Part shown: positions 3,836 to 64,000 of the stretch, in pieces
Layout: each line of letters begins with the position of its first letter
How positions within the stretch are numbered: position 1 is the stretch's first letter
From: Echinarachnius parma
Taxonomy: Eukaryota; Echinodermata; Echinoidea; Clypeasteroida; Echinarachniidae
Assembly: GCA_037951105.1 (NCBI GenBank)
Contig: JBAMJV010007123.1
Span: 1 to 64,000 of the forward strand
Direction of reading: 5' to 3'
Length of the DNA: 64,000 nt
Made by a program: the position numbers and the translations under genes
The notes under the pieces: model-generated
What the model saw: only the letters and a program-made list of their open reading frames with translations
Told to the model about the DNA's origin: nothing
Database searches by the model: none

Positions 3836-3850
3836 TACTAGAGGGATACA
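3820..3850. other. Junction of satellite 1 and satellite 2
   Basis: Satellite 1 is recognisable through TTCCTTGTTCGA and, in altered form, GAAAATTTTTCGAAA (about 3821-3835). The next bases, TACTAGAGGGATACATGATTC, are the standard monomer-boundary sequence of satellite 2. The change happens within a base or two with no target-site duplication or mobile element between the arrays. Both repeats are cut inside a monomer, as expected for a recombination or breakage junction. Confidence 0.85.
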
Positions 3851-3888
3851 TGATTCAAATAATATAATTTCAACCTCAAATTTCGATC

Positions 3889-3962
3889 GGTAAATATGGC
3901 AAGGCGCAATTCAAGTCCGCCTGAAGATCCTCTTAGTGAAGGTTCGAATCCCGTCAGGGGTA
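3889..3962 (+). other. tRNA-like module of type A monomer (representative; degenerate, Pol III B-box)
   Basis: The segment reads like a shrunken class-II (Ser/Leu-type) tRNA. TGGC-AAGGCGC resembles the A box/D arm with several D-loop bases lost. CTGAAGATCC resembles an anticodon-loop region, and CTCTTAGTGAA a variable arm. GGTTCGAATCC at 3941-3951 matches the RNA polymerase III B-box consensus GGTTCGANNCC perfectly. T5 and T7 runs at 3971-3983 lie 10-20 bp downstream, as in Pol III terminators. The T-stem pairs at only two positions and the acceptor ends are not complementary, so it is not a working tRNA gene. An equivalent module sits at the same place in every A monomer. Confidence 0.7.
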
Positions 3963-4431
3963 TGTATGTATTTTTCTTTTTTTACTTCCTTGTTAATTTT
4001 GTATTGATCTATTGCTCCATACATAATATGATCTGCAAACATTATACAACAACTAGATTTATGGATCCTCGCTACTTTCACTTTTTTTTTTTAATGGATA
4101 TAGACATTTGAAGTGTCTTTGTAGACTATTGTGACGTATTGGAAAATTGCGCGTTGCCATGATAGAGCTCGGGGAGCGAATCGCTATAAACAAATTGGCA
4201 AGGCTCGCAAAACGATCTTCGTTTTAAGATTTATTTCTCCGTGTTGCCAAGTGCAAAACAATTCATGACGATAATAGGCGATTGTCAATCCGAACGTGGA
4301 ATAGTGTGCGATTCATTCAAATGTCCTCTACATCATACATCTACATATTGATAGCTGGATATATGTTATTCACACACATACTAGATGGATACATGATTCA
4401 AATAATATAAATTCAACCTCAAATTTTGTTC

Positions 4432-4503
4432 GGTAAAAGTGGCAAGGCGCAAGTAATGTTGGACTCGAGATCCTCTTGGTAAGCGTTCGAATCCCAGCAG
4501 GGT
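4432..4503 (+). other. tRNA-like module of type B monomer (representative; degenerate)
   Basis: This is the B-type counterpart of the module at 3889. GGTAAAAGTGGCAAGGCGC is followed by TTGGACTCGAGATCC, which closely resembles the anticodon arm of a eukaryotic tRNA-Ser(CGA). Next come a short variable-arm-like stretch and CGTTCGAATCC (4484-4494), one mismatch from the B-box consensus. T-runs begin near 4509. The stems do not close, so I read it as a tRNA-derived relic (possibly via a SINE) carried by the satellite. The same module recurs in every B monomer in both orientations. Confidence 0.65.
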
Positions 4504-7500
4504 ATGTATTTTTCATTTTTTTTCCTCTTCCGTGTTTAATCTGTATTATTTATTCCTTTCTTACATAATATGATCTGCAAACACATTACTACAACTAAAT
4601 TCATGCATCCTTGCTCCTTTATATATTAAAAAGAATAACAACTTCATTTTATGGACTACAAACCACATGCAGTTCTGCATCAATATCGTTTAATACATGT
4701 ATTTATTTTTCTTTTTTTGATATAGTCATTTGGTGAGTCTTGGTAATTTTTTCGACGTCTTTGAAAATTGCGGGTTCCCATGATAGAGCTTGGGGAGCGA
4801 ATCGCAATAAACTTGCCAATAAACAAATCGGCTAGGCTCGCAAAACGTTTTTCGTTTAAAGATTTAATTATCCGTGTTGCCAAGTACAAACTAATTCGTA
4901 ACGATAACAGGCGATTGTCAATCGGAACCTTGAACAGTGATCGATTCATCCATGTAATATACTGCCCTCTACATCTTACATCTACATATTGATAGCTGGA
5001 TAAATGTAATTCGCACACACACACACATACTAGAGGGATACATGATTCAAATAATATAATTTCAACCTCAAATTTCGATCGGTAAATATGGCAAGGCGCA
5101 ACTCAAGTCCGTCTGAAGATCCTCTTAGTGAAGGTTCGAATCCCGGCAGGGTATGTATGTATTTTTCTTTTTTCACTTCCTTGTTTATTTTGTATTGATC
5201 TATTGCTCCATACATAATATGATCTGCAAAAATTATACAACAACTAGATTTATGCATCCTCGCTACTTTCACTTTTTTTTTTTAATGGATATAGACATTT
5301 GAAGTGTCTTTGTAGACTATTGTGACGTCTTGGAAAATTGCGCGTTGCTATGATAGAGCTCGGGGAGCGAATCGCAATAAACAAATTGGCAAGGCTCGCA
5401 AAACGATCTTCGTTTTAAGATTTATTTCTCCGTGTTGCCAAGTGCAAAACAATTCATGACGATAATAGGCGATTGTCAATCCGAACGTGGAATAGTGTGC
5501 GATTCATTCAAATGTCCTCTACATCATACATCTACATATTGATAGCTGGATATATGTTATTCACACACATACTAGATGGATACATGATTCAAATAATATA
5601 AATTCAACCTCAAATTTTGTTCGGTAAAAGTGGCAAGGCGCAACTAATGTTGGACTCGAGATCCTCTTGGTAAGCGTTCGAATCCCAGCAGGGTATGTAT
5701 TTTTCATTTTTTTTCCTCTTCCGTGTTTAATCTGTATTATTTATTCCTTTCTTACATAATATGATCTGCAAACACATTACTACAACTAAATTCATGCATC
5801 CTTGCTCCTTTATATATTAAAAAGAATAACAACTTCATTTTATGGACTACAAACCACATGCAGTTCTGCATCAATATCGTTTAATACATGTATTTATTTT
5901 TCTTTTTTTGATATAGTCATTTGGTGAGTCTTGGTAATTTTTTCGACGTCTTTGAAAATTGCGGGTTCCCATGATAGAGCTTGGGGAGCGAATCGCAATA
6001 AACTTGCCAATAAACAAATCGGCTAGGCTCGCAAAACGTTTTTCGTTTAAAGATTTAATTATCCGTATTGCCAAGTACAAACTAAGTCGTGACGATAACA
6101 GGCGATTGTCAATCGGAACCTTGAATAGTGATCGATTCACCCATGTAATATACTGCCCTCTACATCTTACATTTACATATTGATAGCTGGATAAATGTAA
6201 TTCGCACACTCACACATACTAGAGGGATACATGATTCAAATAATATAATTTCAACCTCAAATTTCGATCGGTAAATATGGCAAGGCGCAACTCAAGTCCG
6301 TCTGAAAAACCTCTTAGTGAAGGTTCGAATCCCGGCAGGGGTATGTATACATTTTTCTTTTTTCACTTCCTTGTTTATTTTGTATTGATCTATTGCTCCA
6401 TACATAATATGATCTGCAAAAATTATACAACAAGTAGATTTATGCATCCTCGCTACTTTTACCCTTTTTTTGGTATGGATATAGACATTTGAAGTGTCTT
6501 GTAGACTATTGTGACGTCTTGGAAAATTGCGCGTTGCAATGATAGAGCTCGGGGAGCGAATCGCAATAAACAAATCGGCAAGGCTCGCAAAACGTTCTTC
6601 GTTTTAAGATTTATTTCTCCGTGTTGCCAAGTGCAAAACAATTCGTGACGATAATAGGCGATTGTCAATCGGAACGTGGAATAGTGTTCGATTCATTCAA
6701 ATGTCCTCTACATCATACATCTACATATTGATAGCTGGATATGTGTTATTCACACACATACTAGATGGATACATGATTCAAATAATATAAATTCTACCTC
6801 AAATTTCGTTCGGTAAAAGTGGCAAGGCGCAACTAAGGTTAGACTCGAGATCCTCTTGGTAAGCGTTCGAATCCCAGCAGGGTATGTATTTTTCCATTTT
6901 TTACCTCTTCCGTGTTTAATCTGTATTATTTATTCCTTCCTTACATAATATGATCTGCAAACACATTACTACAACTATGTTCATGCATCCTTGCTCATTT
7001 ATATATCAAAAAGAATAAAAACGTTATTTTATGGACTACCAACCACATGCAGTTCTGCCTCAATATCGTTTAATACATGTATTTATTTTTCTTTTATTGA
7101 TATAGACATTTGGTGAGTCTTGGTAATTATTTCGACGTCTTGGAAAATTGCGCGTTCCCATGATAGAGCTTGGGGAGCGAATCGCAATAAACAAATCGGC
7201 TAGGCTCGCAAAACGTTTTTCGTTAACAGGCGATTGTCAATCGGAATCTTGAATAGTGATCGATTCATCCATGTAATATACTGCCCTCTATATCTTACAT
7301 CTACATATTGATAGCTGGATAAATGTAATTCGCACACACACACATACTAGAGGGATACATGATTCAAATAATATAATTTCAACCTCAAATTTCGATCGGT
7401 AAATATGGCAAGGCGCAACTCAAGTCCGTCTGAAGATCCTCTTAGTGAAGGTTCGAATCCCGGCAGGCCTGGGTATGTATGTATTTTTCTTTTTTCACTT

Positions 7501-7902
7501 CCTTGTTTATTTTGTATTGATCTATTGCTCCATACATAATATGATCTGCAAAAATTATACAACAACTAGATTTATGCATCCTCGCTACTTTCACTTTTTT
7601 TGTGTATGGATATAGACATTTGAAGTGTCTTGTAGACTATTGTGACGTCTTGGAAAATTGCGCGTTGCCATGATAGAGCTCGGGGAGCGAATCGCAATAA
7701 ACAAATCGGCAAGGCTCGCAAAACGTTCTTCGTTTTAAGATTCATTTCTCCGTGTTGCCAAGTGCAAAACAATTCGTGACGATAATAGGCGATTGTCAAT
7801 CGGAACGTGGAATAGTGTTCGATTCATTCAAATGTCCTCTACATCATAAATCTACATATTGATCGCTGGATATGTGTTATTCACACACATACTAGATGGA
7901 TA

Positions 7903-8522
7903 CATGATTCAAATAATATAAATTCAACCTCAAATTTCGTTAGGTAAAAGTGGCAAGGCGCAACTAAGGTTGCACTCGAGATCCTCTTGGTAAGCGTTCG
8001 AATCCCAGCAGGGTATGTATTTTTTATTTTTTTCCTCTTCCGTGTTTAATCTGTATTATTTATTCATTCCTTACATAATATGATCTGCAAACACATTACT
8101 ACAACTAAATTCATGCATCCTTGCTCCTTTATATATAAAAAAGAATAACAAGTTTATTTTATGGACTACAAACCACATGCAGTTCTGCCTCAATATCGTT
8201 TAATACATGTATTTATTTTTCTCTTATTGATATAGACATTTCGTGAGTCTTGGTAATTATTGTGACGTCTTGGAAAATTGCGCGTTGCCATGATAGAGCT
8301 TGGGGAGCGAATCGCAATAAACAAATCGGCAAGGCTCGCAAAACGTTCTTCGTTTTAAGATTTATTTCTCCGTGTTGCCAAGTGCAAAACAATTCATGAC
8401 GATAATAAGCGATTGTCAATCGGAACGTGGAATCGTGTTCGATTCATTCAAATGTCCTCTACATCATACATCTACATATTGATCGCTGGATATGTGTTAT
8501 TCACACACATACTAGATGGATA
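7903..8522 (+). repeat. Chimeric satellite 2 monomer (B head, A tail), 620 bp
   Basis: The first half has the B-type tRNA-like module and the B-only ~95-bp block. After the GATATAGACATTTCGTGAGTCTTGG region it switches to A-type sequence (TTCTTCGTTTTAAGATTTATTTCTCC, GTGCAAAACAATTC, ATGTCCTCTACATCATAC) and ends with the A-type boundary TACTAGATGG. The length lies between A and B. This is what unequal crossing-over or conversion between A and B would give. A near copy sits at 14500-15117. Confidence 0.8.
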
Positions 8523-10875
8523 CATGATTCAAATAATATAAATTCAACCTCAAATTTCGTTCGGTAAAAGTGGCAAGGCGCAACTAAAGTTAGATTCGAG
8601 ATCCTCTTGGTAAGCGTTCGAATCCCAGCAGGGTATGTATTTTTCCTTTTTTTTCCTCTTCCGTGTTTAATCTGTATTATTTATTCCTTCCTTACATAAT
8701 ATGATCTGCAAACACATTACTACAACTATGTTCATGCATCCTTGCTCATTTATATAGCAAAAAGAATAAAAACTTTATTTTATGGACTACCAACCACATG
8801 CAGTTCTGCCTCAATATCGTTTAATACATGTATTTATTTTTCTTTTATTGATATAGACATTTGGTAAGTCTTGGTAATTATTTCGACGTCTTGGAAAATT
8901 GCGCGTTCCCATGATAGAGCTTGGGGAGCGAATCGCAATAAACAAATCGGCTAGGCTCGCAAAACGTTTTTCGTTTAAAGATTTAATTATCCGTGTTGCC
9001 AAGTACAAACTAAGTCGTGACGATAACAGGCGATTGTCAATCGGAATCTTGAAAAGTGATCGATTCATCCATGTAATATACTGCCCTCTATATCTTACAT
9101 CTACATATTGATAGCTGGATAAATGTAATTCGCACACACACACATACTAGAGGGATACATGATTCAAATAATATAATTACAACCTCAAATTTCGATCGGT
9201 AAATATGGCAAGGCGCAACTCAAGTCCGTCTGAAGATCCTCTTAGTGAAGGTTCGAATCCCGGCAGGGGTATGTATGTATTTTTCTTTTTTCACTTCCTT
9301 GTTTATTTTGAATTGATCTATTGCTCCATACATAATATGATCTGCAAAAATTATACAACTAGATTTATGCATCCTCGCTACTTTCACTTTTTTTTTAATG
9401 GATATAGACATTTGAAGGGTCTTGTAGACTATTGTGACTTCTTGGAAAATTGCGCGTTGCTATGATAGAGCTCGGGGAGCGAATCGCAATAAACAAATCG
9501 GCAAGGCTCGCAAAACGATCTTCGTTTTAAGATTTATTTCTCCGTGTTGCCAAGTGCAAAACAATCCGTGACGATAATAGGCGATTGTCAATCGGAACGT
9601 GGAATAGTGTTCGATTCATTCAAATGTCCTCTACATCATACATCTACATATTGATCGCTGGATATGTGTTATTCACACACATACTAGATGGATACATACA
9701 TGATTCAAATAATATAAATTCAACCTCAAATTTCGATCGGTAAAAGTGGCAAGGCGCAACTAAGGTTGGACTCGAGATCCTCTTGGTAAGCGTTCGAATC
9801 CCAGCAGGGTATGTATTTTTCTTTTTTTCCCCTCTTCCGTGTTTAATCTGTATTATTTATTCCTTTCTTACATAATATGATCTGCAAACACATTACTACA
9901 ACTAAATTCATGCATCCTTGCTCCTTTATATATTAAAAAGAATAACAACTTCATTTTATGGACTACAAACCACATGCAGTTCTGCATCAATATCGTTTAA
10001 TACATGTATTTATTTTTCTTTTTTTGATATAGACATTTGGTGAGTCTTGGTAATTATTTCGACGTTTTGGAAAATTGCGCGTTCCCATGATAGAGCTTGG
10101 GGAGCGAATCGCAATAAACTTGCCAATAAACAAATCGGCTAGGCTCGCAAAACGTTTTTCGTTTAAAGATTTAATTATCCGTGTTGCCAAGTACAAACTA
10201 ATTCGTAACGATAACAGGCGATTGTCAATCGGAACCTTGAACAGTGATCGATTCATCCATGTAATATACTGCCCTCTACATCTTACATCTACACATTGAT
10301 AGCTGGATAAATGTAATTCGCACACACACACATACTAGAGGGATACATGATTCAAATAATATAATTTCAACCTCAAATTTCGATCGGTAAATATGGCAAG
10401 TCCGTCTGAAGATCCTCTTAGTGAAGGTTCGAATCCCGGCAGGGTATGTATGTATTTTTCTTTTTTCACTTCCTTGTTTATTTTGTATTGATCTATTGCT
10501 CCATACATAATATGATCTGCAAAAATTATACAACAACTAGATTTATGCATCCTCGCTAATTTCACTTTTTTTATGTATGGATATAGACATTTGAAGTGTC
10601 TTGTAGACTATTGTGACGTCTTGGAAAATTGCGCGTTGCTATGATAGAGCTCGGGGAGCGAATCGCAATAAACAAATCGGCAAGGCTCGCAAAACGATCT
10701 TCGTTTTAAGATTTATTTCTCCGTGTTGCCAAGTGCAAAACAATCCGTGACGATAATAGGCGATTGTCAATCGGAACGTGGAATAGTGTTCGATTCATTC
10801 AAATGTCCTCTACATCATACATCTACATATTGATCGCTGGATATGTGTTATTCACACACATACTAGATGGATACA
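7903..10875 (+). repeat. Segmental duplication inside satellite 2, left copy
   Basis: Monomer lengths 620-635-543-647-528 here match 618-634-542-647-528 at 14500-17468. Rare variants are shared in order, including the TTGCACTCGAG module, the GAATTGATCTATTG variant, the GGATACATACATGATTC insertion (near 9695 and 16288) and the shortened AAATATGGCAAGTCCG module (near 10392 and 16986). The offset is about 6.59 kb. This shows amplification in blocks larger than the A/B dimer. Confidence 0.85.
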
Positions 10876-11493
10876 TGATTCAAATAATATAAATTCAACC
10901 TCAAATTTCGTTCGGTAAAAGTGGCAAGGCGCAACTATGGTTAGACTCGAGATCCTCTTGGTAAGTGTTCGAATCCCAGCAGGGTATGTATTTTTCTTTT
11001 TTTCCTCTTCCGTGTTTAATCTGTATTATTTATTCCTTCCTTACATAATATGATCTGCAAACACATTACTACAACTAAATTCATGCATCCTTGCTCCTTT
11101 ATATATCAAAAAGAATAACAAGTTTATTTTATGGACTACCAACCACATGCAGTTCTGCCTCAATATCGTTTAATACATCTATTTATTTTTCTTTTATTGA
11201 TATAGACATTTGGTGAGTCTTGGTAATTATTTCGACGTCTTGGAAAATTGCGCGTTCCCATGATAGAGCTTGGGGAGCGAATCGCAATAAACAAATCGGC
11301 AAGGCTCGCAAAACGTTCTTCGTTTTAATATTTATTTCTCCGTGTTGCCAAGTGCAAAACAATTCGTGACGATAATAGGCGCTTGTCAATCGGAACGTGG
11401 AATCGTGTTCGATTCATTCAAATGTCCTCTACATCATACATCTACATATTGATCGCTGGATATGTGTTATTCACACACATACTAGATGGATAC
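10876..11493 (+). repeat. Chimeric satellite 2 monomer (B head, A tail), ~618 bp
   Basis: It begins with the B-type module and B-only block and ends with A-type middle and tail sequence (TTCTTCGTTTTAATATTTATTTC, GTGCAAAACAATTCGTGACG, TACTAGATGG). It is followed directly by another B-headed monomer, so two B heads are adjacent here. Confidence 0.75.
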
Positions 11494-14400
11494 ATGATTC
11501 AAATAATATATATTCAACCTCAAATTTCGTTCGGTAAAAGTGGCAAGGCGCAACTAAGGTTAGACTCGAGATCCTCTTGGTAAGTGTTCGAATCCCAGCA
11601 GGGTATGTATTTTTTTTTTCCTCTTCCGTGTTTTATCTGTATTATTTATTCCTTCCTTACATAATATGATCTGCAAACACATTACTACAACTAAATTCAT
11701 GCATCCTTGCTCCTTTATATATTAAAAAGAATAACAACTTCATTTTATGGACTACCAACCACATGCAGTTCTGCCTCAATATCGTTTAATACATGTATTT
11801 ATTTTTCCTTTTTTGATATAGTCATTTGGTGAGTCTTGGTAATTATTTCGACGTCTTGGAAAATTGCGCGTTCCCATGATAGAGCTTGGGGAGCGAATCG
11901 CAATAAACTTGCCAATAAACAAATCGGCTAGGCTCGCAAATCGTTTTTCGTTTAAAGATTTAATTATCCGTGTTGCCAAGTACAAACTAATTCGTAACGA
12001 TAACAGGCGATTGTCAATCGGAACCTTGAACAGTGATCGATTCATCCATGTAATATACTGCCCTCTACATCTTACATCTACATATTGATAGCTGGATAAA
12101 TGTAATTCGCACACACACACATACTAGAGGGATACATGATTCAAATAATATAAATTCAACCTCAAATTTAGTTCGGTAAAAGTGGCAAGGCGCAACTAAG
12201 GTTGGACTCGAGATCATCTTGGTAAGCGTTCGAATCCCAGCAGGGTATGTATTTTTCTTTTTTTCCTCTTCCGTGTTTTATCTGTATTATTTATTCCTTC
12301 CTTACATAATATGATCTGCAAACACATTACTACAACTAAATTCATGCATCCTTGCTCCTTTATATATTAAAAAGAATAACAACTTCATTTTATGGACTAC
12401 CAACCACATGCAGTTCTGCCTCAATATCGTTTAATACATGTATTTATTTTTCTTTTATTGATATAGACATTTGGTGAGTCTTGGTAATTATTTCGACGTC
12501 TTGGAAAATTGCGCGTTCCCATGATAGAGCTTGCGGAGCGAATCGCAATAAACAAATCGGCTAGGCTCGCAAAACGTTTTTCGTTTAAAGATTTAATTAT
12601 CCGTATTGCCAAGTACAAACTAAGTCGTGACGATAACAGGCGATTGTCAACCGGAACCTTGAATAGTGATCGATTCATCCAAGTAATATACTGCCCTCTA
12701 CATCTTACATCTACATATTGATAGCTGGATAAATGTAATTCGCACACTCACACATACTAGAGGGATACATGATTCAAATAATATAATTTCAACCTCAAAT
12801 TTCGATCGGTAAATATGGCAAGGCGCAACTCAAGTCCGTCTGAAGATCCTCTTAGTGCAGGTTCGAATCCCGGCAGGGGTATGTATGTATTTTTCTTTTT
12901 TCACTTCCTTGTTTATTTTGTATTGATCTATTGCTCCATACATAATATGATCTGCAAAAATTATACAACAACTAGATTTATGCATCCTCGCAACTTTCAC
13001 TTTTTTTAAAAATGGATATAGACATTTGAAGTGTCTTGTAGACTATTGTGACGTCTTGGAAAATTGCGCGTTGCCATGATAGAGCTCGGGGAGCGAATCG
13101 CAATAAACAAATCGGGAAGGCTCGCAAAACGTTCTTTGTTTTAAGATTTATTTCTCCGTGTTGCCAAGTGCAAAACAATTCGTGACGATAATAGGCGATT
13201 GTCAATCGGAACGTGGAATAGTGTTCGATTCATTCAAATGTTCTCTACATCATACATCTACATATTGATAGCTGGATATGTGTTATTCACACACATACTA
13301 GATGGATACATGATTCAAATAATATAAATTCAACCTCAAATTTCGTTCGGTAAAAGTGGCAAGGCGCAACTAAGGTTGGACTCGAGATCCTCTTGGTAAG
13401 CGTTCGAATCCCAGCAGGGTATGTATTTTTTATTTTTTTCCTCTTCCGTGTTTAATCTGTATTATTTATTCCTTTCTTACATAATATGATCTGCAAACAC
13501 ATTACTACAACTAAATTCATGCATCCTTGCTCCTTTATATATTAAAAAGAATAACAACTTCATTTTATGGACTACAAACCACATGCAGTTCTGCATCAAT
13601 ATCGTTTAATACATGTATTTATTTTTTCTTTTTTTGATATAGTCATTTGGTAAGTCTTGGTAATTATTTCGACGTCTTGGAAAATTGCGCGTTCCCATGA
13701 TAGAGCTTGGGGAGCGAATTGCAATAAACTTGCCAATAAACAAATCGGCTAGGCTCGCAAAACGTTTTTCGTTTAAAGATTTAATTATCCGTATTGCCAA
13801 GTACAAACTAAGTCGTGACGATAACAGGCGATTGTCAATCGGAACCTTGAATAGTGATCGATTCATCCAAGTAATATACTGCCCTCTACATCTTACATCT
13901 ACATATTGATAGCTGGATAAATGTAATTCGCACACTCACACATACTAGAGGGATACATGATTCAAATAATATAATTTCAACCTCAAATTTCGATCGGTAA
14001 ATATGGCAAGGCGCAACTCAAGTCCGTCTGAATATCCTCTTAGTGCAGGTTCGAATCCCGGCAGGGGTATGTATGTATTTTTCTTTTTTCACTTCCTTGT
14101 TTATTTTGTATTGATCTATTGCTCCATACATAATATGATCTGCAAAAATTATACAACAACTAGATTTATGCATCCTCGCTACTTTCACTTTTTTTAAAAA
14201 TGGATATAGACATTTGAAGTGTCTTGTAGACTATTGTGACGTATTGGAAAATTGCGCGTTGCCATGATAGAGCTCGGGGAGCGAATCGCAATAAACAAAT
14301 CGGCAAGGCTCGCAAAACGTTCTTCGTTTTAAGATTTATTTCTCCGTGTTGCCAAGTGCAAAACAATTCGTGACGATAATAGGCGATTGTCAATCGGAAC

Positions 14401-14499
14401 GTGGAATAGTGTTCGATTCATTCAAATGTCCTCTACATCATACATCTACATATTGATAGCTGGATATGTGTTATTCACACACATACTAGATGGATACAT

Positions 14500-15117
14500 G
14501 ATTCAAATAATATAAATTCTACCTCAAATTTCGTTAGGTAAAAGTGGCAAGGCGCAACTAAGGTTGCACTCGAGATCCTCTTGGTAAGCGTTCGAATCCC
14601 AGCAGGGTATGTATTTTTATTTTTTTCCTCTTCCGTGTTTAATCTGTATTATTCATTCATTCCTTACATAATATGATCTGCAAACACATTACTACAACTA
14701 AATTCATGCATCCTTGCTCCTTTATATATAAAAAAGAATAACAAGTTTATTTTATGGACTACAAACCACATGCAGTTCTGCCTCAATATCGTTTAATACA
14801 TGTATTTATTTTTCTCTTATTGATATAGACATTTCGTGAGTCTTGGTAATTATTGTGACGTCTTGGAAAATTGCGCGTTGCCATGATAGAGCTTGGGGAG
14901 CGAATCGCAATAAACAAATCGGCAAGGCTCGCAAAACGTTCTTCGTTTTAAGATTTATTTCTCCGTGTTGCCAAGTGCAAAACAATTCATGACGATAATA
15001 AGCGATTGTCAATCGGAACGTGGAATCGTGTTCGATTCATTCAAATGTCCTCTACATCATACATCTACATATTGATCGCTGGATATGTGTTATTCACACA
15101 CATACTAGATGGATACA
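14500..15117 (+). repeat. Chimeric satellite 2 monomer (B head, A tail), ~618 bp
   Basis: This is nearly the same as the chimera at 7903-8522, sharing its rare variants (TTGCACTCGAG in the tRNA-like module, TATAAAAAAGAATAACAAG, TTTCGTGAGTC and GATAATAAGCG). It belongs to the ~3-kb segment duplicated at 6.6 kb distance. Confidence 0.8.
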
Positions 15118-17468: not shown

Positions 17469-17752
17469 TGATTCAAATAATATAAATTCAACCTCAAATT
17501 TCGTTCGGTAAAAGTGGCAAGGCGCAACTAAGGTTAGACTCGAGATCCTCTTGGTAAGTGTTCGAATCCCAGCAGGGTATGTATTTTTCTTTTTTTCCTC
17601 TTCCGTGTTTAATCTGTATTATTTATTCCTTCCTTACATAATATGATCTGCAAACACATTACTACAACTAAATTCATGCATCCTTGCTCCTTTATATATT
17701 AAAAAGAATAACAACTTCATTTTATGGACTACAAACCACATGCAGTTCTGCA

Positions 17753-20700: not shown

Positions 20701-21080
20701 TTGTATGGACATAGACATTTGAAGTGTCTTGTAGACTATTGTGACGTCTTGGAAAATTGCGCGTTGCCATGATAGAGCTCGGGGAGCGAATCGCAATAAA
20801 CAAATCGGCAAGGCTCGCAAAACGTTCTTCATTTTAAGATTTATTTCTCCGTGTTGCCAAGTGCAAAACAATTCGTGACGATAATAGGCGATTGTCAATC
20901 GGAACGTGGAATAGTGTTCGGTTCATTCAAATGTCCTCTACATCATACATCTACATATTGATAGCTGGATATGTGTTATTCACACACATACTAGATGGAT
21001 ACATGATTCAAATAATATAAATTCAACCTCAAATTTCGTTCGGTAAAAGTGGCAAGGCGCAACTAAGGTTGGACTCGAGA
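17753..21080 (+). repeat. 2.36-kb tandem duplication inside satellite 2
   Basis: The stretch from about 17753 recurs from about 20114 at an offset of ~2,361 bp. Shared private variants include TAATTTGAACCTC, ATGATCTGAACAAATT, ACTTTCCCTTTTTTTTTGTATGGACATAG (split across several bases) and TCTCTTATTGATATAGACATTTCG. It is a second, smaller block amplification next to the 6.6-kb one. Confidence 0.75.
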
Positions 21081-50530: not shown

Positions 50531-53500
50531 TGAATCATGTATCCCTCTAGTATGTGTGTATGTGTGTGCGAATTACATTTATCCAGCTATCAATATGTAG
50601 ATGTAAGATGTAGAGGGCAGTATATTACATGGATGAATCGATCACTGTTCAAGGTTCCGATTGACAATCGCCTGTTATCGTTACTAATTGTTTTGCACTT
50701 GGCAACACGGAGAAATAAATCTTAAAACGAAGAACGTTTTGCGAGCCTTGCCGATTTGTTTATTGCGATTCGCTCCCCGAGCTCTATCATGGCAACGCGC
50801 AATTTTCCAAGACGTCACAATAGTCTACAAGACACTTCAAATGTCTATATCCATACAAAAAAAAAAGGTAAAAGTAGCGAGGATGCATAAATCTACTTGT
50901 TGTATAATTTTTGCAGATCATATTATGTATGGAGCAATAGATCAATACAAAATAAACAAGGAAGTGAAAAAAGAAAAATGTATACATACCCCTGCCGGGA
51001 TTCGAACCTTCACTAAGAGGATTTTCAGACGGACTTGAGTTGCGCCTTGCCATATTTACCGATCGAAATTTGAGGTTGAAATTATATTATTTGAATCATG
51101 TATCCCTCTAGTATGTGTGAGTGTGCGAATTACATTTATCCAGCTATCAATATGTAGATGTAAGATGTAGAGGGCAGTATATTACATGGGTGAATCGATC
51201 ACTATTCAAGGTTCCGATTGACAATCGCCTGTTATCGTCACGACTTAGTTTGTACTTGGCAATACGGATAATTAAATCTTTAAACGAAAAACGTTTTGCG
51301 AGCCTAGCCGAGTTGTTTATTGCGATTCGCTCCCCAAGCTCTATCATGGGAACGCGCAATTTTCCAAGACGTCGAAATAATTACCAAGACTCACCAAATG
51401 TCTATATCAATAAAAGAAAAATAAATACATGTATTAAACGATATTGAGGCAGAACTGCATGTGGTTGGTAGTCCATAAAATAAAGTTTTTATTCTTTTTG
51501 ATATATAAAGGAGCAAGGATGCATGAATTTAGTTGCAGTAATGTGTTTGCAGATCATATTATGTAAGGAAGGAATAAATAATACAGATTAAACACGGAAG
51601 AGGAAAAAAAGAAAAATACATACCCTGCTGGGATTCGAACACTTACCAAGAGGATCTCGAGTCTAACCTTAGTTGCGCCTTGCCACTTTTACCGAACGAA
51701 ATTTGAGGTTGAATTTATATTATTTGAATCATGTATCCATCTAGTATGTGTGTGAATAACACATATCCAGCGATCAATATGTAGATGTATGATGTAGAGG
51801 ACATTTGAATGAATCGAACACTATTCCACGTTCCGATTGACAATCGCCTATTATCGTCACGGATTGTTTTGCACTTGGCAACACGGAGAAATAAATCTTA
51901 AAACGAAGATCGTTTTGCGAGCCTTGCCGATTTGTTTATTGCGATTCGCTCCCCGAGCTCTATCATAGCAACGCGCAATTTTCCAAGACGTCACAATAGT
52001 CTACAAGACACTTCAAATGTCTATATCCATACATAAAAAAGTGAAAGTAGCGAGGATGCATAAATCTAGTTGTTGTATAATGTTTGCAGATCATATTATG
52101 TATGGAGCAATAGATCAATACAAAATAAACAAGGAAGTGAAAAAAGAAAAATACATACATACCCTGCCGGGATTCGAACCTTCACTAAGAGGATCTTCAG
52201 ACGGACTTGAGTTGCGCCTTGCCATATTTACCGATCGAAATTTGAGGTTGAAATTATATTATTTGAATCATGTATCCCTCTAGTATGTGTGTATGTGTGT
52301 GCGAATTACATTTATCCAGCTATCAATATGTAGATGTAAGATGTAGAGGGCAGTATATTACATGGGTGAATCGATCACTATTCAAGGTTCCGATTGACAA
52401 TCGCCTGTTATCGTCACGACTTAGTTTGTACTTGGCAATACGGATAATTAAATCTTTAAACGAAAAACGTTTTGCGAGCCTAGCTGATTTGTTTATTGCG
52501 ATTCGCTCCCCAAGCTCTATCATGGGAACGCGCAATTTTCCAAGACGTCGAAATAATTACCAAGACTCACCAAATGTCTATATCAATAAAAGAAAAATAA
52601 ATACATGTATTAAACGATATTGAGGCAGAACTGCATGTGGTTGGTAGTCCATAAAATAAAGTTTGTATTCTTTTTGATATATAAAGGAGCAAGGATGCGT
52701 GAATTTAGTTGTAGTAATGTGTTTGCAGATCATATTATGTAAGGAAGGAATAAATAATACAGATAAAACACGGAAGAGGAAAAAAAATACATACCCTGCT
52801 GGGATTTGAACGCTTACCAAGAGGATCTCGAGTCCAACCTTAGTTGCGCCTTGCCACTTTTACCGAGGGAAATTTGAGGTTGAATATATATTATTTGAAT
52901 CATGTATCCCTCTAGTATGTGTGTGTGTGTGTGTGCAAATTACATTTATCCAGCTATCAATATGTAGATGTAAGATGTAGAGGGCAGTATATTACATGGA
53001 TGAATCGATCACTGTTCAAGGTTCCGATTGACAATCGCCTGTTATCGTTACTAATTGTTTTGCACTTGGCAACACGGAGAAATAAATCTTAAAACGAAGA
53101 ACGTTTTGCGAGCCTTGCCGATTTGTTTATTGCGATTCGCTCCCCGAGCTCTATCATGGCAACGCGCAATTTTCCAAGACGTCACAATAGTCTACAAGAC
53201 ACTTCAAATGTCTATATCCATACAAAAAAAAAGGTAAAAGTAGCGAGGATGCATAAATCTACTTGTTGTATTATTTTTGCAGATCATATTATGTATGGAG
53301 CAATAGATCAATACAAAATAAACAAGGAAGTGAAAAAAGAAAAATGTATACATACCCCTGCCGGGATTCGAACCTTCACTAAGAGGATTTTCAGACGGAC
53401 TTGAGTTGCGCCTTGCCATATTTACCGATCGAAATTTGAGGTTGAAATTATATTATTTGAATCATGTATCCCTCTAGTATGTGTGAGTGTGCGAATTACA

Positions 53501-54629
53501 TTTATCCAGCTATCAATATGTAGATGTAAGATGTAGAGGGCAGTATATTACATGGGTGAATCGATCACTATTCAAGGTTCCGATTGACAATCGCCTGTTA
53601 TCGTCACGACTTAGTTTGTACTTGGCAATACGGATAATTAAATCTTTAAACGAAAAACGTTTTGCGAGCCTAGCTGATTTGTTTATTGCGATTCGCTCCC
53701 CAAGCTCTATCATGGGAACGCGCAATTTTCCAAGACGTCGAAATAATTACCAAGACTCACCAAATGTCTATATAAATAAAAGAAAAAAAAAATACATGTA
53801 TTAAACGATATTGAGGCAGAACTGCATGTGGTTGGAAGTCCATAAAATAAAGTTTTTATTCTTTTTGATATATAAAGGAGCAAGGATGCATGAATTTAGT
53901 TGTAGTAATGTGTTTGCACATCATATTATGTAAGGAAGGAATAAATAATACAGATTAAACACGGAAGAGGAAAAAAAGAAAAATACATACCCTGCTGGGA
54001 TTCGAACACTTACCAAGAGGATCTCGAGTCTAACCTTAGTTGCGCCTTACCACTTTTACCGAACGAAATTTAAGGTTGAATTTATATTATTTGAATCATG
54101 TATCCATCTAGTATGTGTGTGAATAACACATATCCAGCGATCAATATGTAGATGTATGATGTAGAGGACATTTGAATGAATCGAACACTATTCCACGTTC
54201 CGATTGACAATCGCCTATTATCGTCACGGATTGTTTTGCACTTGGCAACACGGAGAAATAAATCTTAAAACGAAGATCGTTTTGCGAGCCTTGCCGATTT
54301 GTTTATTGCGATTCGCTCCCCGAGCTCTATCATAGCAACGCACAATTTTCCAAGACGTCACAATAGTCTACAAGACACTTCAAATGTCTATATCCGTACA
54401 TAAAAAAGTGAAAGTAGCGAGGATGCATAAATCTAGTTGTTGTATAATTTTTGCAGATCATATTATGTATGGAGCAATAGATCAATACAAAATAAACAAG
54501 GAAGTGAAAAAAGAAAAATACATACATACCCTGCCGGGATTCGAACCTTCACTAAGAGGATCTTCAGACGGACTTGAGTTGCGCCTTGCCATATTTACCG
54601 ATCGAAATTTGAGGTTGAAATTATATATT
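50531..54629 (-). repeat. Satellite 2 4.1-kb higher-order repeat, tandem copy 3
   Basis: 4,099 bp, nearly identical to copy 2, including the longer A-run near 50855 and (TG)9 at 52918-52935. A private 2-bp loss (TTATATATTTGAATC) marks its right end near 54625. Confidence 0.9.
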
Positions 54630-57600
54630 TGAATCATGTATCCCTCTAGTATGTGTGTATGTGTGTGCGAATTACATTTATCCAGCTATCAATATGTAGA
54701 TGTAAGATGTAGAGGGCAGTATATTACATGGATGAATCGATCACTGTTCAAGGTTCCGATTGACAATCGCCTGTTATCGTTACTAATTGTTTTGCACTTG
54801 GCAACACGGAGAAATAAATCTTAAAACGAAGAACGTTTTGCGAGCCTTGCCGATTTGTTTATTGCGATTCGCTCCCCGAGCTCTATCATGGCAACGCGCA
54901 ATTTTCCAAGACGTCACAATAGTCTACAAGACACTTCAAATGTCTATATCCATACAAAAAAAAAGGTAAAAGTAGCGAGGATGCATAAATCTACTTGTTG
55001 TATAATTTTTGCAGATCATATTATGTATGGAGCAATAGATCAATACAAAATAAACAAGGAAGTGAAAAAAGAAAAATGTATACATACCCCTGCCGGGATT
55101 CGAACCTTCACTAAGAGGATTTTCAGACGGACTTGAGTTGCGCCTTGCCATATTTACCGATCGAAATTTGAGGTTGAAATTATATTATTTGAATCATGTA
55201 TCCCTCTAGTATGTGTGAGTGTGCGAATTACATTTATCCAGCTATCAATATGTAGATGTAAGATGTAGAGGGCAGTATATTACATGGGTGAATCGATCAC
55301 TATTCAAGGTTCCGATTGACAATCGCCTGTTATCGTCACGACTTAGTTTGTACTTGGCAATACGGATAATTAAATCTTTAAACGAAAAACGTTTTGCGAG
55401 CCTAGCCGAGTTGTTTATTGCGATTCGCTCCCCAAGCTCTATCATGGGAACGCGCAATTTTCCAAGACGTCGAAATAATTACCAAGACTCACCAAATGTC
55501 TATATCAATAAAAGAAAAATAAATACATGTATTAAACGATATTGAGGCAGAACTGCATGTGGTTGGTAGTCCATAAAATAAAGTTTTTATTCTTTTTGAT
55601 ATATAAAGGAGCAAGGATGCATGAATTTAGTTGTAGTAATGTGTTTGCAGATCATATTATGTAAGGAAGGAATAAATAATACAGATTAAACACGGAAGAG
55701 GAAAAAAAGAAAAATACATACCCTGCTGGGATTCGAACACTTACCAAGAGGATCTCGAGTCTAACCTTAGTTGCGCCTTGCCACTTTTACCGAACGAAAT
55801 TTGAGGTTGAATTTATATTATTTGAATCATGTATCCATCTAGTATGTGTGTGAATAACACATATCCAGCGATCAATATGTAGATGTATGATGTAGAGGAC
55901 ATTTGAATGAATCGAACACTATTCCACGTTCCGATTGACAATCGCCTATTATCGTCACGGATTGTTTTGCACTTGGCAACACGGAGAAATAAATCTTAAA
56001 ACGAAGATCGTTTTGCGAGCCTTGCCGATTTGTTTATTGCGATTCGCTCCCCGAGCTCTATCATAGCAACGCGCAATTTTCCAAGACGTCACAATAGTCT
56101 ACAAGACACTTCAAATGTCTATATCCATACATAAAAAAGTGAAAGTAGCGAGGATGCATAAATCTAGTTGTTGTATAATGTTTGCAGATCATATTATGTA
56201 TGGAGCAATAGATCAATACAAAATAAACAAGGAAGTGAAAAAAGAAAAATACATACATACCCTGCCGGGATTCGAACCTTCACTAAGAGGATCTTCAGAC
56301 GGACTTGAGTTGCGCCTTGCCATATTTACCGATCGAAATTTGAGGTTGAAATTATATTATTTGAATCATGTATCCCTCTAGTATGTGTGTATGTGTGTGC
56401 GAATTACATTTATCCAGCTATCAATATGTAGATGTAAGATGTAGAGGGCAGTATATTACATGGGTGAATCGATCACTATTCAAGGTTCCGATTGACAATC
56501 GCCTGTTATCGTCACGAATTAGTTTGTACTTGGCAATACGGATAATTAAATCTTTAAACGAAAAACGTTTTGCGAGCCTAGCTGATTTGTTTATTGCGAT
56601 TCGCTCCCCAAGCTCTATCATGGGAACGCGCAATTTTCCAAGACGTCGAAATAATTACCAAGACTCACCAAATGTCTATATCAATAAAAGAAAAATAAAT
56701 ACATGTATTAAACGATATTGAGGCAGAACTGCATGTGGTTGGTAGTCCATAAAATAAAGTTTTTATTCTTTTTGATATATAAAGGAGCAAGGATGCGTGA
56801 ATTTAGTTGTAGTAATGTGTTTGCAGATCATATTATGTAAGGAAGGAATAAATAATACAGATAAAACACGGAAGAGGAAAAAAAATACATACCCTGCTGG
56901 GATTTGAACGCTTACCAAGAGGATCTCGAGTCCAACCTTAGTTGCGCCTTGCCACTTTTACCGAGGGAAATTTGAGGTTGAATATATATTATTTGAATCA
57001 TGTATCCCTCTAGTATGTGTGTGTGTGTGTGTGTGCAAATTACATTTATCCAGCTATCAATATGTAGATGTAAGATGTAGAGGGCAGTATATTACATGGA
57101 TGAATCGATCACTGTTCAAGGTTCCGATTGACAATCGCCTGTTATCGTTACTAATTGTTTTGCACTTGGCAACACGGAGAAATAAATCTTAAAACGAAGA
57201 ACGTTTTGCGAGCCTTGCCGATTTGTTTATTGCGATTCGCTCCCCGAGCTCTATCATGGCAACGCGCAATTTTCCAAGACGTCACAATAGTCTACAAGAC
57301 ACTTCAAATGTCTATATCCATACAAAAAAAAAGGTAAAAGTAGCGAGGATGCATAAATCTACTTGTTGTATTATTTTTGCAGATCATATTATGTATGGAG
57401 CAATAGATCAATACAAAATAAACAAGGAAGTGAAAAAAGAAAATTGTATACATACCCCTGCCGGGATTCGAACCTTCACTAAGAGGATTTTCAGACGGAC
57501 TTGAGTTGCGCCTTGCCATATTTACCGATCGAAATTTGAGGTTGAAATTATATTATTTGAATCATGTATCCCTCTAGTATGTGTGAGTGTGCGAATTACA

Positions 57601-58729
57601 TTTATCCAGCTATCAATATGTAGATGTAAGATGTAGAGGGCAGTATATTACATGGGTGAATCGATCACTATTCAAGGTTCCGATTGACAATCGCCTGTTA
57701 TCGTCACGACTTAGTTTGTACTTGGCAATACGGATAATTAAATCTTTAAACGAAAAACGTTTTGCGAGCCTAGCCGATTTGTTTATTGCGATTCGCTCCC
57801 CAAGCTCTATCATGGGAACGCGCAATTTTCCAAGACGTCGAAATAATTACCAAGACTCACCAAATGTCTATATCAATAAAAGAAAAATAAATACATGTAT
57901 TAAACGATATTGAGGCAGAACTGCATGTGGTTGGTAGTCCATAAAATAAAGTTTTTATTCTTTTTGATATATAAAGGAGCAAGGATGCATGAATTTAGTT
58001 GTAGTAATGTGTTTGCAGATCATATTATGTAAGGAAGGAATAAATAATACAGATTAAACACGGAAGAGGAAAAAAAGAAAAATACATACCCTGCTGGGAT
58101 TCGAACACTTACCAAGAGGATCTCGAGTCTAACCTTAGTTGCGCCTTGCCACTTTTACCGAACGAAATTTGAGGTTGAATTTATATTATTTGAATCATGT
58201 ATCCATCTAGTATGTGTGTGAATAACACATATCCAGCGATCAATATGTAGATGTATGATGTAGAGGACATTTGAATGAATCGAACACTATTCCACGTTCC
58301 CATTGACAATCGCCTATTATCGTCACGGATTGTTTTGCACTTGGCAACACGGAGAAATAAATCTTAAAACGAAGATCGTTTTGCGAGCCTTGCCGATTTG
58401 TTTATTGCGATTCGCTCCCCGAGCTCTATCATAGCAACGCACAATTTTCCAAGACGTCACAATAGTCTACAAGACACTTCAAATGTCTATATCCATAAAT
58501 AAAAAAGTGAAAGTAGCGAGGATGCATAAATCTAGTTGTTGTATAATTTTTGCAGATCATATTATGTATGGAGCAATAGATCAATACAAAAAAAACAAGG
58601 AAGTGAAAAAAGAAAAATACATACATACCCTGCCGGGATTCGAACCTTCACTAAGAGGATCTTCAGACGGACTTGAGTTGCGCCTTGCCATATTTACCGA
58701 TCGAAATTTGAGGTTGAAATTATATTATT
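54630..58729 (-). repeat. Satellite 2 4.1-kb higher-order repeat, tandem copy 4
   Basis: 4,100 bp with the same seven-monomer order. (TG)10 lies at 57016-57035. It carries private changes such as CACGAATTAGTTTG near 56514 and GAAAATTGTATAC near 57440. Confidence 0.9.
58627..58698 (-). other. tRNA-like module of type A monomer in the inverted array (representative)
   Basis: Reverse-strand version of the module described at 3889. GGATTCGAACC at 58636-58646 is the complement of a perfect B box, GCGCCTTGCCA is the A-box-like end, and the A-runs of GAAAAAAGAAAAATAC just to the left are the T-run terminator on the minus strand. Comparable modules occur in each reverse-orientation monomer, some shortened by ~10 bp (GACTTGCCATATTT). 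Confidence 0.65.
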
Positions 58730-61700
58730 TGAATCATGTATCCCTCTAGTATGTGTGTATGTGTGTGCGAATTACATTTATCCAGCTATCAATATGTAGA
58801 TGTAAGATGTAGAGGGCAGTATATTACATGGATGAATCGATCACTGTTCAAGGTTCCGATTGACAATCGCCTGTTATCGTTACTAATTGTTTTGCACTTG
58901 GCAACACGGAGAAATAAATCTTAAAACGAAGAACGTTTTGCGAGCCTTGCCGATTTGTTTATTGCGATTCGCTCCCCGAGCTCTATCATGGCAACGCGCA
59001 ATTTTCCAAGACGTCACAATAGTCTACAAGACACTTCAAATGTCTATATCCATACAAAAAAAAAGGTAAAAGTAGCGAGGATGCATAAATCTACTTGTTG
59101 TATAATTTTTGCAGATCATATTATGTATGGAGCAATAGATCAATACAAAATAAACAAGGAAGTGAAAAAAGAAAAATGTATACATACCCCTGCCGGGATT
59201 CGAACCTTCACTAAGAGGATTTTCAGACGGACTTGAGTTGCGCCTTGCCATATTTACCGATCGAAATTTGAGGTTGAAATTATATTATTTGAATCATGTA
59301 TCCCTCTAGTATGTGTGAGTGTGCGAATTACATTTATCCAGCTATCAATATGTAGATGTAAGATGTAGAGGGCAGTATATTACATGGGTGAATCGATCAC
59401 TATTCAAGGTTCCGATTGACAATCGCCTGTTATCGTCACGACTTAGTTTGTACTTGGCAATACGGATAATTAAATCTTTAAACGAAAAACGTTTTGCGAG
59501 CCTAGCCGATTTGTTTATTGCGATTCGCTCCCCAAGCTCTATCATGGGAACGCGCAATTTTCCAAGACGTCGAAATAATTACCAAGACTCACCAAATGTT
59601 TATATCAATAAAAGAAAAATAAATACATGTATTAAACGATATTGAGGCAGAACTGCATGTGGTTGGTAGTCCATAAAATAAAGTTTTTATTCTTTTTGAT
59701 ATATAAAGGAGCAAGGATGCATGAATTTAGTTGTAGTAATGTGTTTGCAGATCATATTATGTAAGGAAGGAATACATAATACAGATTAAACACGGAAGAG
59801 GAAAAAAAGAAAAATACATACCCTGCTGGGATTCGAACACTTACCAAGAGGATCTCGAGTCTAACCTTAGTTGCGCCTTGCCACTTTTACCGAACGAAAT
59901 TTGAGGTTGAATTTATATTATTTGAATCATGTATCCATCTAGTATGTGTGTGAATAACACATATCCAGCGATCAATATGTAGATGTATGATGTAGAGGAC
60001 ATTTGAATGAATCGAACACTATTCCACGTTCCGATTGACAATCGCCTATTATCGTCACGGATTGTTTTGCACTTGGCAACACGGAGAAATAAATCTTAAA
60101 ACGAAGATCGTTTTGCGAGCCTTGCCGATTTGTTTATTGCGATTCGCTCCCCGAGCTCTATCATAGCAACGCACAATTTTCCAAGACAATAGTCTACAAG
60201 ACACTTCAAATGTCTATATCCATACATAAAAAAGTGAAAGTAGCGAGGATGCATAAATCTAGTTGTTGTATAATTTTTGCAGATCATATTATGTATGGAG
60301 CAATAGATCAATACAAAATAAACAAGGAAGTGAAAAAAGAAAAATACATACATACCCTGCCGGGATTCGAACCTTCACTAAGAGGATCTTCAGACGGACT
60401 TGAGTTGCGCCTTGCCATATTTACCGATCGAAATTTGAGGTTGAAATTATATTATTTGAATCATGTATCCCTCTAGTATGTGTGTATGTGTGTGCGAATT
60501 ACATTTATCCAGCTATCAATATGTAGATGTAAGATGTAGAGGGCAGTATATTACATGGATGAATCGATCACTGTTCAAGGTTCCGATTGACAATCGCCTG
60601 TTATCGTTACTAATTGTTTTGCACTTGGCAACACGGAGAAATAAATCTTAAAACGAAGAACGTTTTGCGAGCCTTGCCGATTTGTTTATTGCGATTCGCT
60701 CCCCGAGCTCTATCATGGCAACGCGCAATTTTCCAAGACGTCACTATAGTCTACAAGACACTTCAAATGTCTATATCCATACAAAAAAAAAGGTAAAAGT
60801 AGCGAGGATGCATAAATCTACTTGTTGTATAATTTTTGCAGATCATATTATGTATGGAGCAATAGATCAATACAAAATAAACAAGGAAGTGAAAAAAGAA
60901 AAATGTATACATACCCCTGCCGGGATTCGAACCTTCACTAAGAGGATTTTCAGACGGACTTGAGTTGCGCCTTGCCATATTTACCGATCGAAATTTGAGG
61001 TTGAAATTATATTATTTGAATCATGTATCCCTCTAGTATGTGTGAGTGTGCGAATTACATTTATCCAGCTATCAATATGTAGATGTAAGATGTAGAGGGC
61101 AGTATATTACATGGGTGAATCGATCACTATTCAAGGTTCCGATTGACAATCGCCTGTTATCGTCACGACTTAGTTTGTACTTGGCAATACGGATAATTAA
61201 ATCTTTAAACGAAAAACGTTTTGCGAGCCTAGCCGATTTTTTTATTGCGATTCGCTCCCCAAGCTCTATCATGGGAACGCGCAATTTTCCAAGACGTCGA
61301 AATAATTACCAAGACTCACCAAATGTCTATATCAATAAAAGAAAAATAAATACATGTATTAAACGATATTGAGGCAGAACTGCATGTGGTTGGTAGTCCA
61401 TAAAATAAAGTTTTTATTCTTTTTGATATATAAAGGAGCAAGGATGCATGAATTTAGTTGTAGTAATGTGTTTGCAGATCATATTATGTAAGGAAGGAAT
61501 AAATAATACAGATTAAACACGGAAGAGGAAAAAAAGAAAAATACATACCCTGCTGGGATTCGAACACTTACCAAGAGGATCTCGAGTCTAACCTTAGTTG
61601 CGCCTTGCCACTTTTACCGAACGAAATTTGAGGTTGAATTTATATTATTTGAATCATGTATCCATCTAGTATGTGTGTGAATAACACATATCCAGCGATC

Positions 61701-64000
61701 AATATGTAGATGTATGATGTAGAGGACATTTGAATGAATCGAACACTATTCCACGTTCCGATTGACAATCGCCTATTATCGTCACGGATTGTTTTGCACT
61801 TGGCAACACGGAGAAATAAATCTTAAAACGAAGATCGTTTTGCGAGCCTTGCCGATTTGTTTATTGCGATTCGCTCCCCGAGCTCTATCATAGCAACGCA
61901 CAATTTTCCAAGACGTCACAATAGTCTACAAGACACTTCAAATGTCTATATCCATACATAAAAAAGTGAAAGTAGCGAGGATGCATAAATCTAGTTGTTG
62001 TATAATTTTTGCAGATCATATTATGTATGGAGCAATAGATCAATACAAAATAAACAAGGAAGTGAAAAAAGAAAAATACATACATACCCTGCCGGGATTC
62101 GAACCTTCACTAAGAGGATCTTCAGACGGACTTGAGTTGCGCCTTGCCATATTTACCGATCGAAATTTGAGGTTGAAATTATATTATTTGAATCATGTAT
62201 CCCTCTAGTATGTGTGTATGTGTGTGCGAATTACATTTATCCAGCTATCAATATGTAGATGTAAGATGTAGAGGGCAGTATATTACATGGATGAATCGAT
62301 CACTGTTCAAGGTTCCGATTGACAATCGCCTGTTATCGTTACTAATTGTTTTGCACTTGGCAACACGGAGAAATAAATCTTAAAACGAAGAACGTTTTGC
62401 GAGCCTTGCCGATTTGTTTATTGCGATTCGCTCCCCGAGCTCTATCATGGCAACGCGCAATTTTCCAAGACGTCACAATAGTCTACAAGACACTTCAAAT
62501 GTCTATATCCATACAAAAAAAAAAGTAAAAGTAGCGAGGATGCATAAATCTACTTGTTGTATAATTTTTGCAGATCATATTATGTATGGCGCAATAGATC
62601 AATACAAAATAAACAAGGAAGTGAAAAAAGAAAAATACATACATACCCCTGCCGGGATTCGAAACTTCACTAAGAGGATTTTCAGACGGACTTGAGTTGC
62701 GCCTTGCCATATTTACCGATCGAAATTTGAGGTTGAAATTATATTATTTGAATCATGTATCCCTCTAGTATGTGTGTATGTGTGTGCGAATTACATTTAT
62801 CCAGCTATCAATATGTAGATGTAAGATGTAGAGGGCAGTATATTACATGGATGAATCGATCACTGTTCAAGGTTCCGATTGACAATCGCCTGTTATCGTT
62901 ACGAATTGTTTTGCACTTGGCAACACGGAGAAATAAATCTTAAAACGAAGAACGTTTTGCGAGTCTTGCCGATTTGTTTATTGCGATTCGCTCCCCGAGC
63001 TCTATCATGGCAACGCGCAATTTTCCAAGACGTCACAATAGTCTACAAGACACTTCAAATGTCTATATCCATACAAAAAAAAGGTAAAAGTAGCGAGGAT
63101 GCATAAATCTACTTGTTGTATAATTTTTGCAGATCATATTATGTATGGAGCAATAGATCAATACAAAATAAACAAGGAAGTGAAAAAAGAAAAATATATA
63201 CATACCCCTGCCGGGATTCGAACCTTCACTAAGAGGATTTTCAGACGGACTTGCCATATTTACCGATCGAAATTTGAGGTTGAAATTATATTATTTGAAT
63301 CATGTATCCCTCTAGTATGTGTGAGTGTGCGAATTACATTTATCCAGCTATCAATATGTAGATGTAAGATGTAGAGGGCAGTATATTACATGGGTGAATC
63401 GATCACTATTCAAGGTTCCGATTGACAATCGCCTGTTATCGTCACGACTTAGTTTGTACTTGGCAATACGGATAATTAAATCTTTAAACGAAAAACGTTT
63501 TGCGAGCCTAGCCGATTTGTTTATTGCGATTCGCTCCCCAAGCTCTATCATGGGAACGCGCAATTTTCCAAGACGTCGAAATAATTACCAAGACTCACCA
63601 AATGTCTATATCAATAAAAGAAAAATAAATACATGTATTAAACGATATTGAGGCAGAACTGCATGTGGTTGGTAGTCCATAAAATAAAGTTTTTATTCTT
63701 TTTGATATATAAAGGAGCAAGGATGCATGAATTTAGTTGTAGTAATGTGTTTGCAGATCATATTATGTAAGGAAGGAATAAATAATACAGATTAAACACG
63801 GAAGAGGAAAAAAAGAAAAATACATACCCTGCAGGGATTCGAACACTTACCAAGAGGATCTCGAGTCTAACCTTAGTTGCGCCTTGCCACTTTTACCGAA
63901 CGAAATTTGAGGTTGAATTTATATTATTTGAATCATGTATCCATCTAGTATGTGTGTGAATAACACATATCCAGCGATCAATATGTAGATGTATGATGTA
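58730..64000 (-). repeat. Satellite 2 array, reverse orientation, right end of window
   Basis: Here the 7-mer gives way to a repeated three-monomer unit (560-633-~539, ~1.73 kb) with anchors at 58730, 59290, 59923, 60457, 61017, 61650, 62189, 62749, 63298 and 63931. A 5-bp loss (CCAAGACAATAG) near 60187 is private to one monomer. The monomer 62749-63297 is another close match to the LINE-bearing one and has an uninterrupted target at 62861-62870. The array runs off the window. Confidence 0.92.

Follow-up and report, generated by a model that had tools for sequence, protein, structure and literature searches.

Is a B box that recurs in every unit of a long satellite array a site kept for RNA polymerase III (Pol III), or is it the remnant of a transfer RNA (tRNA)-like sequence that was copied along as the array grew? 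The question is raised by the first 64,000 bases of contig C7114 (217 kb) of Echinarachnius parma; we refer to this whole stretch as the window, and the genome searched comprises 1.2 Gb in 14,790 contigs. In a mitochondrial COX1 stretch of this assembly TGA stands where Trp is expected, and, judged by conserved motifs of the protein, the frame makes most sense with ATA as Ile (18 codons), AAA as Asn (1 codon), and AGA as Ser (3 codons); this agrees with the echinoderm mitochondrial code, most of which flatworms share, and the protein too looks echinoderm-like, in keeping with an echinoderm host. The element concerned is satellite 2 (S2), a head-to-tail array of A and B monomers in which each unit holds one tRNA-like module. 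The sequence evidence leads us to think that this module is probably a decayed tRNA-like pseudogene, an inherited fossil whose B box is passive and changes at about the background rate. The array and an example of each type of box are located as follows.

3836..22480, forward strand: S2 array; each of its monomers, A or B, has a single tRNA-like module
22485..64000, reverse strand: inverted S2 array, interrupted by a long interspersed element (LINE) and running beyond the window within C7114
5081..5155, forward strand: example of an A-type tRNA-like module, placed by alignments (the tRNA model scores its B box only), with box-A-like TGGCAAGGCGC from 5089
5133..5143, forward strand: perfect B box GGTTCGAATCC of the A-type example
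5162..5166, forward strand: terminator-like run of five T (T5), 18 bases beyond the end of the B box
5675..5685, forward strand: B-type B box CGTTCGAATCC, with one mismatch

The B box of satellite 2 and its rate of change

An earlier note on this DNA had described a B box in every S2 monomer with a T-run nearby, and both observations hold. At up to one mismatch, GGTTCGAATCC has 87 matches in the window (31 forward, 56 reverse), one per S2 unit, against a shuffle expectation of 0.76 and a highest count of 4 among 100 shuffles. These comprise 49 perfect boxes, 21 of the form TGTTCGAATCC, 15 of the form CGTTCGAATCC, and 2 others, and the module is present in both orientations and in both unit types of C7114 (mostly 527-564 bp and 619-651 bp). 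A profile found 95 module copies in the window, with 103 more retrieved from the rest of C7114; box mismatches over the 95 number zero in 49, one in 37, and two in nine, which is one single-mismatch box fewer than in the motif count. T5 begins 14-25 bp 3' of the B box in 87 of 87 window copies, compared with onset within 25 bp for 12.6% of positions in the array background. The S2 copies are homologous and descend from one unit, so that this spacing represents a few independent facts and not 87. Elsewhere in the module, 12 bp of the box-A region are missing in six of the 54 S2 copies listed, and inspection indicates that T-stem pairing has been lost in the window modules.

The same note had suggested that the B box looks better preserved than the tRNA stems, which could reflect selection for TFIIIC binding. 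To evaluate this we used 109 distinct module copies (93 from C7114, 14 from C1720, and one each from C8568 and C6142), namely 113 distinct copies minus four C8568 rows bearing at least three box mismatches, with changes counted by parsimony and the expectation taken from the average column. Across its 11 columns the B box shows 16 changes where 17.0 are expected (ratio 0.94, 95% range 0.54-1.53), and its rank of 0.54 among 11-column windows is near the median; the whole 74-column module has 122 changes against 114.5 expected. A selected TFIIIC site would be expected to change more slowly than neighboring bases, and no such slowing was found in these 109 copies; at present power the box varies as freely as the rest, contrary to the proposal. 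By lineage, the box has 14 changes versus 12.9 expected in C7114 alone and 1 versus 3.2 in C1720/C6142 (15 distinct copies). Two earlier copy sets placed it similarly: 12 changes and rank 0.67 in a set picked with the 22-mer described below as its anchor, and 24 changes and rank 0.53 in a profile set (219 of 238 matches kept, 113 distinct) whose seeds included non-homologous C8568 stretches. Many perfect B boxes in a homogenized array can thus be hitch-hiking copies of one motif, a caution that applies to counts of this kind.

Satellite arrays grow and homogenize through unequal exchange or similar turnover. We suggest that a degenerate tRNA-like pseudogene (~65-75 bp) was already in the unit when S2 amplification began, and that array growth and homogenization by such turnover would have let every unit inherit it. 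Each unit would then carry a module because the box travelled with each exchange between units. Decay in the window lineage would have affected the T-stem and box-A region, the B box persisting passively near the background rate, and any Pol III activity of S2 would be residual.

tRNA likeness in the window and in sister arrays

Within the window the evidence for a tRNA is faint, and the Ser/Leu-like label that the module had been given finds no support from Rfam, default ARAGORN, or a Ser/Leu model. ARAGORN at default settings reported 0 tRNA genes in the window, and no cloverleaf of the kind that marks a functional tRNA gene was recognized. The Rfam tRNA family RF00005 was without a report at E up to 10, both in the window and in its positions 5028-5800, and nothing in the window reaches Rfam gathering scores. 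Seven Ser/Leu-type tRNA sequences from the same genome were made into a model, whose best score in positions 5000-7400 was 5.9 bits, on the B box alone. Compared with 1000 dinucleotide shuffles, and with only eight tRNAs of the same genome as reference, the sequence 5' of the box outscores 79% in the A type (p=0.21) and 98.5% in the B type (p=0.015). At its 3' end the A type agrees with the end of tRNA-Arg(TCT) at 20 of 22 positions, including 10 of 11 beyond the box. We dropped the Ser/Leu filing; labels shift among Ser, Leu, Pro, or Arg with copy, method, and threshold. The window also gave 26 snoTBR5 matches (E up to 10; at most 24.5 bits versus a cut-off of 44), which we judged to be chance.

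Relatives of S2 form arrays in C1720 (22-mer matches at 180-253 kb) and C6142 (13.6 to at least 86 kb), and C8568 has a few further copies; pieces from C1720 are ~75-86% identical to the window S2 units. Two C1720 modules score across the full Ser/Leu model, at 18.7 and 18.6 bits (E ~0.0006, a rough value for 20 kb with filters off), and with filters on in 101 kb of C1720 the model gave 15.8 and 14.6 bits (E 0.023 and 0.052). Several other C1720 modules match in the T-arm only, with a 4-bp T-stem UGGGUUCGAAUCCCA and 11.1 bits. At 90% of its threshold ARAGORN made eight calls in S2 contig stretches, four of them on S2 modules within a 20-kb part of C1720; it made none in 154 kb of C7114 and one in a random 205-kb control. 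At 85%, nine S2 modules were among 14 calls in the 20 kb of C1720, and the other sets gave five calls (C7114), 13 (C8568), and 11 (the 205-kb control). Settings of 80% and 75% of the threshold were not used because the control then yields 76 and 292 calls. The upstream-of-box part of the C1720/C6142 type beats 99.6% of 1000 shuffles (p=0.004), and this type also matches the tRNA anticodon-arm part GTTGGACTCAAGATCC.

The earlier suggestion of a tRNA ancestry is thus upheld in part. Ancestry is likely, on the strength of a sister array outside the window (18.7 and 18.6 bits), and the signal is uneven between copies and weak in the window itself. Judged from these comparisons, the window lineage is the more decayed S2 tRNA lineage, and the sister array retains the tRNA part better. 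The S2 arrays of C1720 and C6142 are oppositely oriented, and two modules compared between them are near-identical; the two contigs may represent alternative haplotypes of a single locus.

An origin by way of a short interspersed element (SINE) had also been envisaged. A search with the A monomer returned 55 matches, in C7114, C8568, and C1720, and no dispersed parent among the six of 243 first-look candidates that were scored. The C1720 monomer returned nine matches, all in C1720, again with no dispersed parent (one of 178 candidates scored). A 34-base module pattern gave 177 matches, and the 100 listed are all in C1720 or C6142, with no dispersed parent. The 82 matches to a 22-base pattern of the box plus the 3' end correspond to S2 contigs, tRNA-Arg-type ends (those retrieved belong to tRNA-Arg genes), and one other tRNA-like 3' end (C10901). 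Because very common words are passed over in such searches, they could fail to reveal a dispersed parent. A SINE intermediate is therefore without support, no dispersed parent having appeared in weak searches that scored few candidates.

Alternative readings and a conserved upstream segment

The best-kept part of the alignment lies upstream of the module.

5036..5057, forward strand: one instance of the best-kept segment, a 22-mer, GGATACATGATTCAAATAATAT
5049-5057, forward strand: TATA-like AAATAATAT that ends the 22-mer

This 22-mer sits 25-46 bp 5' of the tRNA-equivalent first base, and its nine-base end AAATAATAT lies 33-25 bp upstream of that base. It shows 7 changes where 34.0 are expected over the 109 copies (ratio 0.21, range 0.08-0.42; rank 0.003), in a conservation profile seeded from copies located via the same 22-mer. 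Taken by lineage, it ranks at 0.032 for C7114 and at 0.161 for C1720/C6142. Of 213 copies collected through a separate anchor at another place in the unit, 199 have it without a mismatch; its zero changes in the anchor-picked set are an ascertainment artefact. Genome-wide, at up to two mismatches, it has 645 matches versus one for the reversed pattern, and among the matches listed all places are in C1720 and C6142. In the rodent Pol III genes 4.5SH and 4.5SI, TATA-like boxes at -31/-24 are reported to be required (PMC10137851). The position of AAATAATAT would by inference suit a TFIIIB/TBP site, and the 22-mer could equally be a candidate site for another DNA-binding protein. One may go further and imagine S2 as tandem Pol III-type promoters whose constrained part is not the B box, and is instead the 22-mer with its TATA-like end at TFIIIB spacing; the array would then bring TFIIIB/TFIIIC, or some other protein that binds DNA, to the satellite chromatin next to the major satellite 1 (S1) and help to organize it. 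We consider this scenario a long shot. If a protein does bind the 22-mer, the S2 family would offer a compact system for asking what maintains satellites.

Might the modules be working type-2 Pol III promoters or TFIIIC sites, in an array that is TFIIIC-bound or transcribed? This seems to us unlikely, in spite of the perfect B boxes in 49 window copies, the T5 run 14-25 bp 3' in 87 of 87, and a best-kept 22-mer ending in AAATAATAT at a distance resembling that of the required boxes in 4.5SH and 4.5SI. The B box is no slower than its surroundings, its first G is gone in the B type, and in nine copies of the window it differs at two positions; moreover, the box-A region is off the usual consensus and partly deleted in some copies, and the T-stem of the window modules is lost. 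Somewhat less probable still is a B-box motif that arose by chance in an unrelated satellite and was spread by amplification alone. A single ancestral event would suffice for all copies, the window modules go uncalled by Rfam, default ARAGORN, and the tRNA model, the upstream similarity of the A type is no better than shuffles (p=0.21), and two relatives, in C1720 and C6142, reach just 6.3 bits. However, other C1720 modules score as tRNA-like, the upstream similarity of the C1720/C6142 type stands out at p=0.004, and the A type agrees with the tRNA-Arg(TCT) 3' end at 20 of 22 bases, including 10 of the 11 beyond the box. We give very little credence to the segment being a fossil primer-binding site of a long terminal repeat retroelement, which would match the tRNA 3' end alone and on the opposite strand. 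A tRNA 3' end is indeed the strongest match (20/22, tRNA-Arg(TCT)), but by inspection no TGG (the complement of CCA) adjoins it, and the C1720/C6142 type matches the anticodon-arm part GTTGGACTCAAGATCC too.

The reading that we favor, a decayed pseudogene with a passive B box, has to be set against several observations that tell against it. The nine-base core TTCGAATCC has 8 changes where 13.9 are expected (ratio 0.57, range 0.25-1.13; rank 0.32; not significant) and is unchanged in the 15 distinct C1720/C6142 copies, for which 2.6 changes are expected; a milder constraint on the core is possible. The distance from the B box to T5 has been kept in all 87 window copies. As regards ancestry, many stem pairs are broken in the top-scoring C1720 alignments, and two modules, one at C1720:197 kb and one in C6142, reach just 6.3 bits and were not reported for the Rfam tRNA family at E up to 10. 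Four of the eight ARAGORN calls at 90% lie off S2 modules (two in C1720, two in C8568), and the background in real sequence is for this reason above that of the random control. The small reference of eight tRNAs likewise tempers the upstream-of-box comparison.

Related repeats and neighboring features

Extra-TFIIIC (ETC) sites are defined by TFIIIC occupancy. S2 resembles them in having B boxes away from tRNA genes that are candidates, by sequence, for TFIIIC binding.

Among tandem repeats, the PolIII/TAN repeat (formerly Hirt) of the newt Cynops pyrrhogaster has a unit of ~360 nt with a tRNA-like segment and no similar SINE identified, according to the available sections of a published account (PMC10702118). 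S2 is alike in these respects. Its units are longer (mostly 527-564 or 619-651 bp), and any transcription of them is hypothetical. For PolIII/TAN, transcription in vitro has been reported, and the title of the original report derives the repeat from tRNA-Glu by retroposition (PMC10702118). Xenopus OAX/satellite I, as presented in those sections, likewise has a long tandem unit whose middle part derives from a tRNA, and an unconfirmed SINE origin; unlike S2 it is transcribed in oocytes, by the title of the original, and the likeness is structural and not a sequence comparison (PMC10702118). The squamate sSats are described there as derived from known dispersed SINEs, and the snake sSat unit, like S2, spans the 3' part of a tRNA-related head including box B (PMC10702118). 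S2 differs from the sSats in that a dispersed parent SINE was not seen in our weak searches. Rana/polIII and Hy/polIII are also described as tandem repeats with tRNA-like parts (questionable in Hy/polIII), and for these two, PolIII/TAN, and OAX the SINE link is called inconclusive in the same sections (PMC10702118). S2 fits structurally among the tRNA-like tandem repeats known from newt, Xenopus, frogs, and squamates, with a tRNA part that is partly demonstrated. The titles and abstract openings among the papers listed in literature searches contain nothing on tRNA-like satellites of echinoderms, and the available part of PMC8580430 does not mention tandem repeats. S2 would be an echinoderm addition to the short list of satellites with tRNA-like Pol III promoter remnants.

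A repeat with a unit of ~291 bp occurs on many contigs, with one to four copies per 3-kb locus, often in tandem (L029-L058, e.g., L029:1116-1928). It contains a near-intact tRNA-like sequence (61 matches above the RF00005 cut-off in 30 loci, up to 54.4 bits) with a T4-T5 run within a few bases of the tRNA-like part, and its starts and ends differ by locus. By sequence it is a stronger Pol III candidate than S2. Kinship between the two was considered and rejected, the best matches being just 11-18 bases long. Clusters of tRNA-Arg(TCT) genes were found in L070, L071, and L072 (C4134, C9811, and C11418), with spacing down to ~165 bp and with some altered or truncated copies interspersed. In L082 (C10057:11182-11263) lies a tRNA that is close to the Ser(TGA) gene of L081 and has the anticodon CAA; ARAGORN names it Leu(CAA).

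Two further features share the window with S2.

1..3835, forward strand: satellite 1 (S1), 223-bp unit, 17.2 copies (Tandem Repeats Finder)
27190..32010, forward strand: LINE-type retrotransposon inside S2, not satellite sequence, with approximate ends

The tRNA-like module is absent from S1 (1..3835). Relatives of S1 gave 379 matches distributed across many contigs in the genome search, a scatter on which we rejected the idea that S1 and S2 form a single mobile unit. The orientation of S2 turns over near 22,485 (window:22480-22490), and match strands indicate more switches near C7114:116.8 kb and 142.3 kb. The reading frames of the LINE encode SAP and weak GDSL-like domains (first), PHD and endonuclease domains (second), and a reverse transcriptase (third), and its tail consists of CAAA units.

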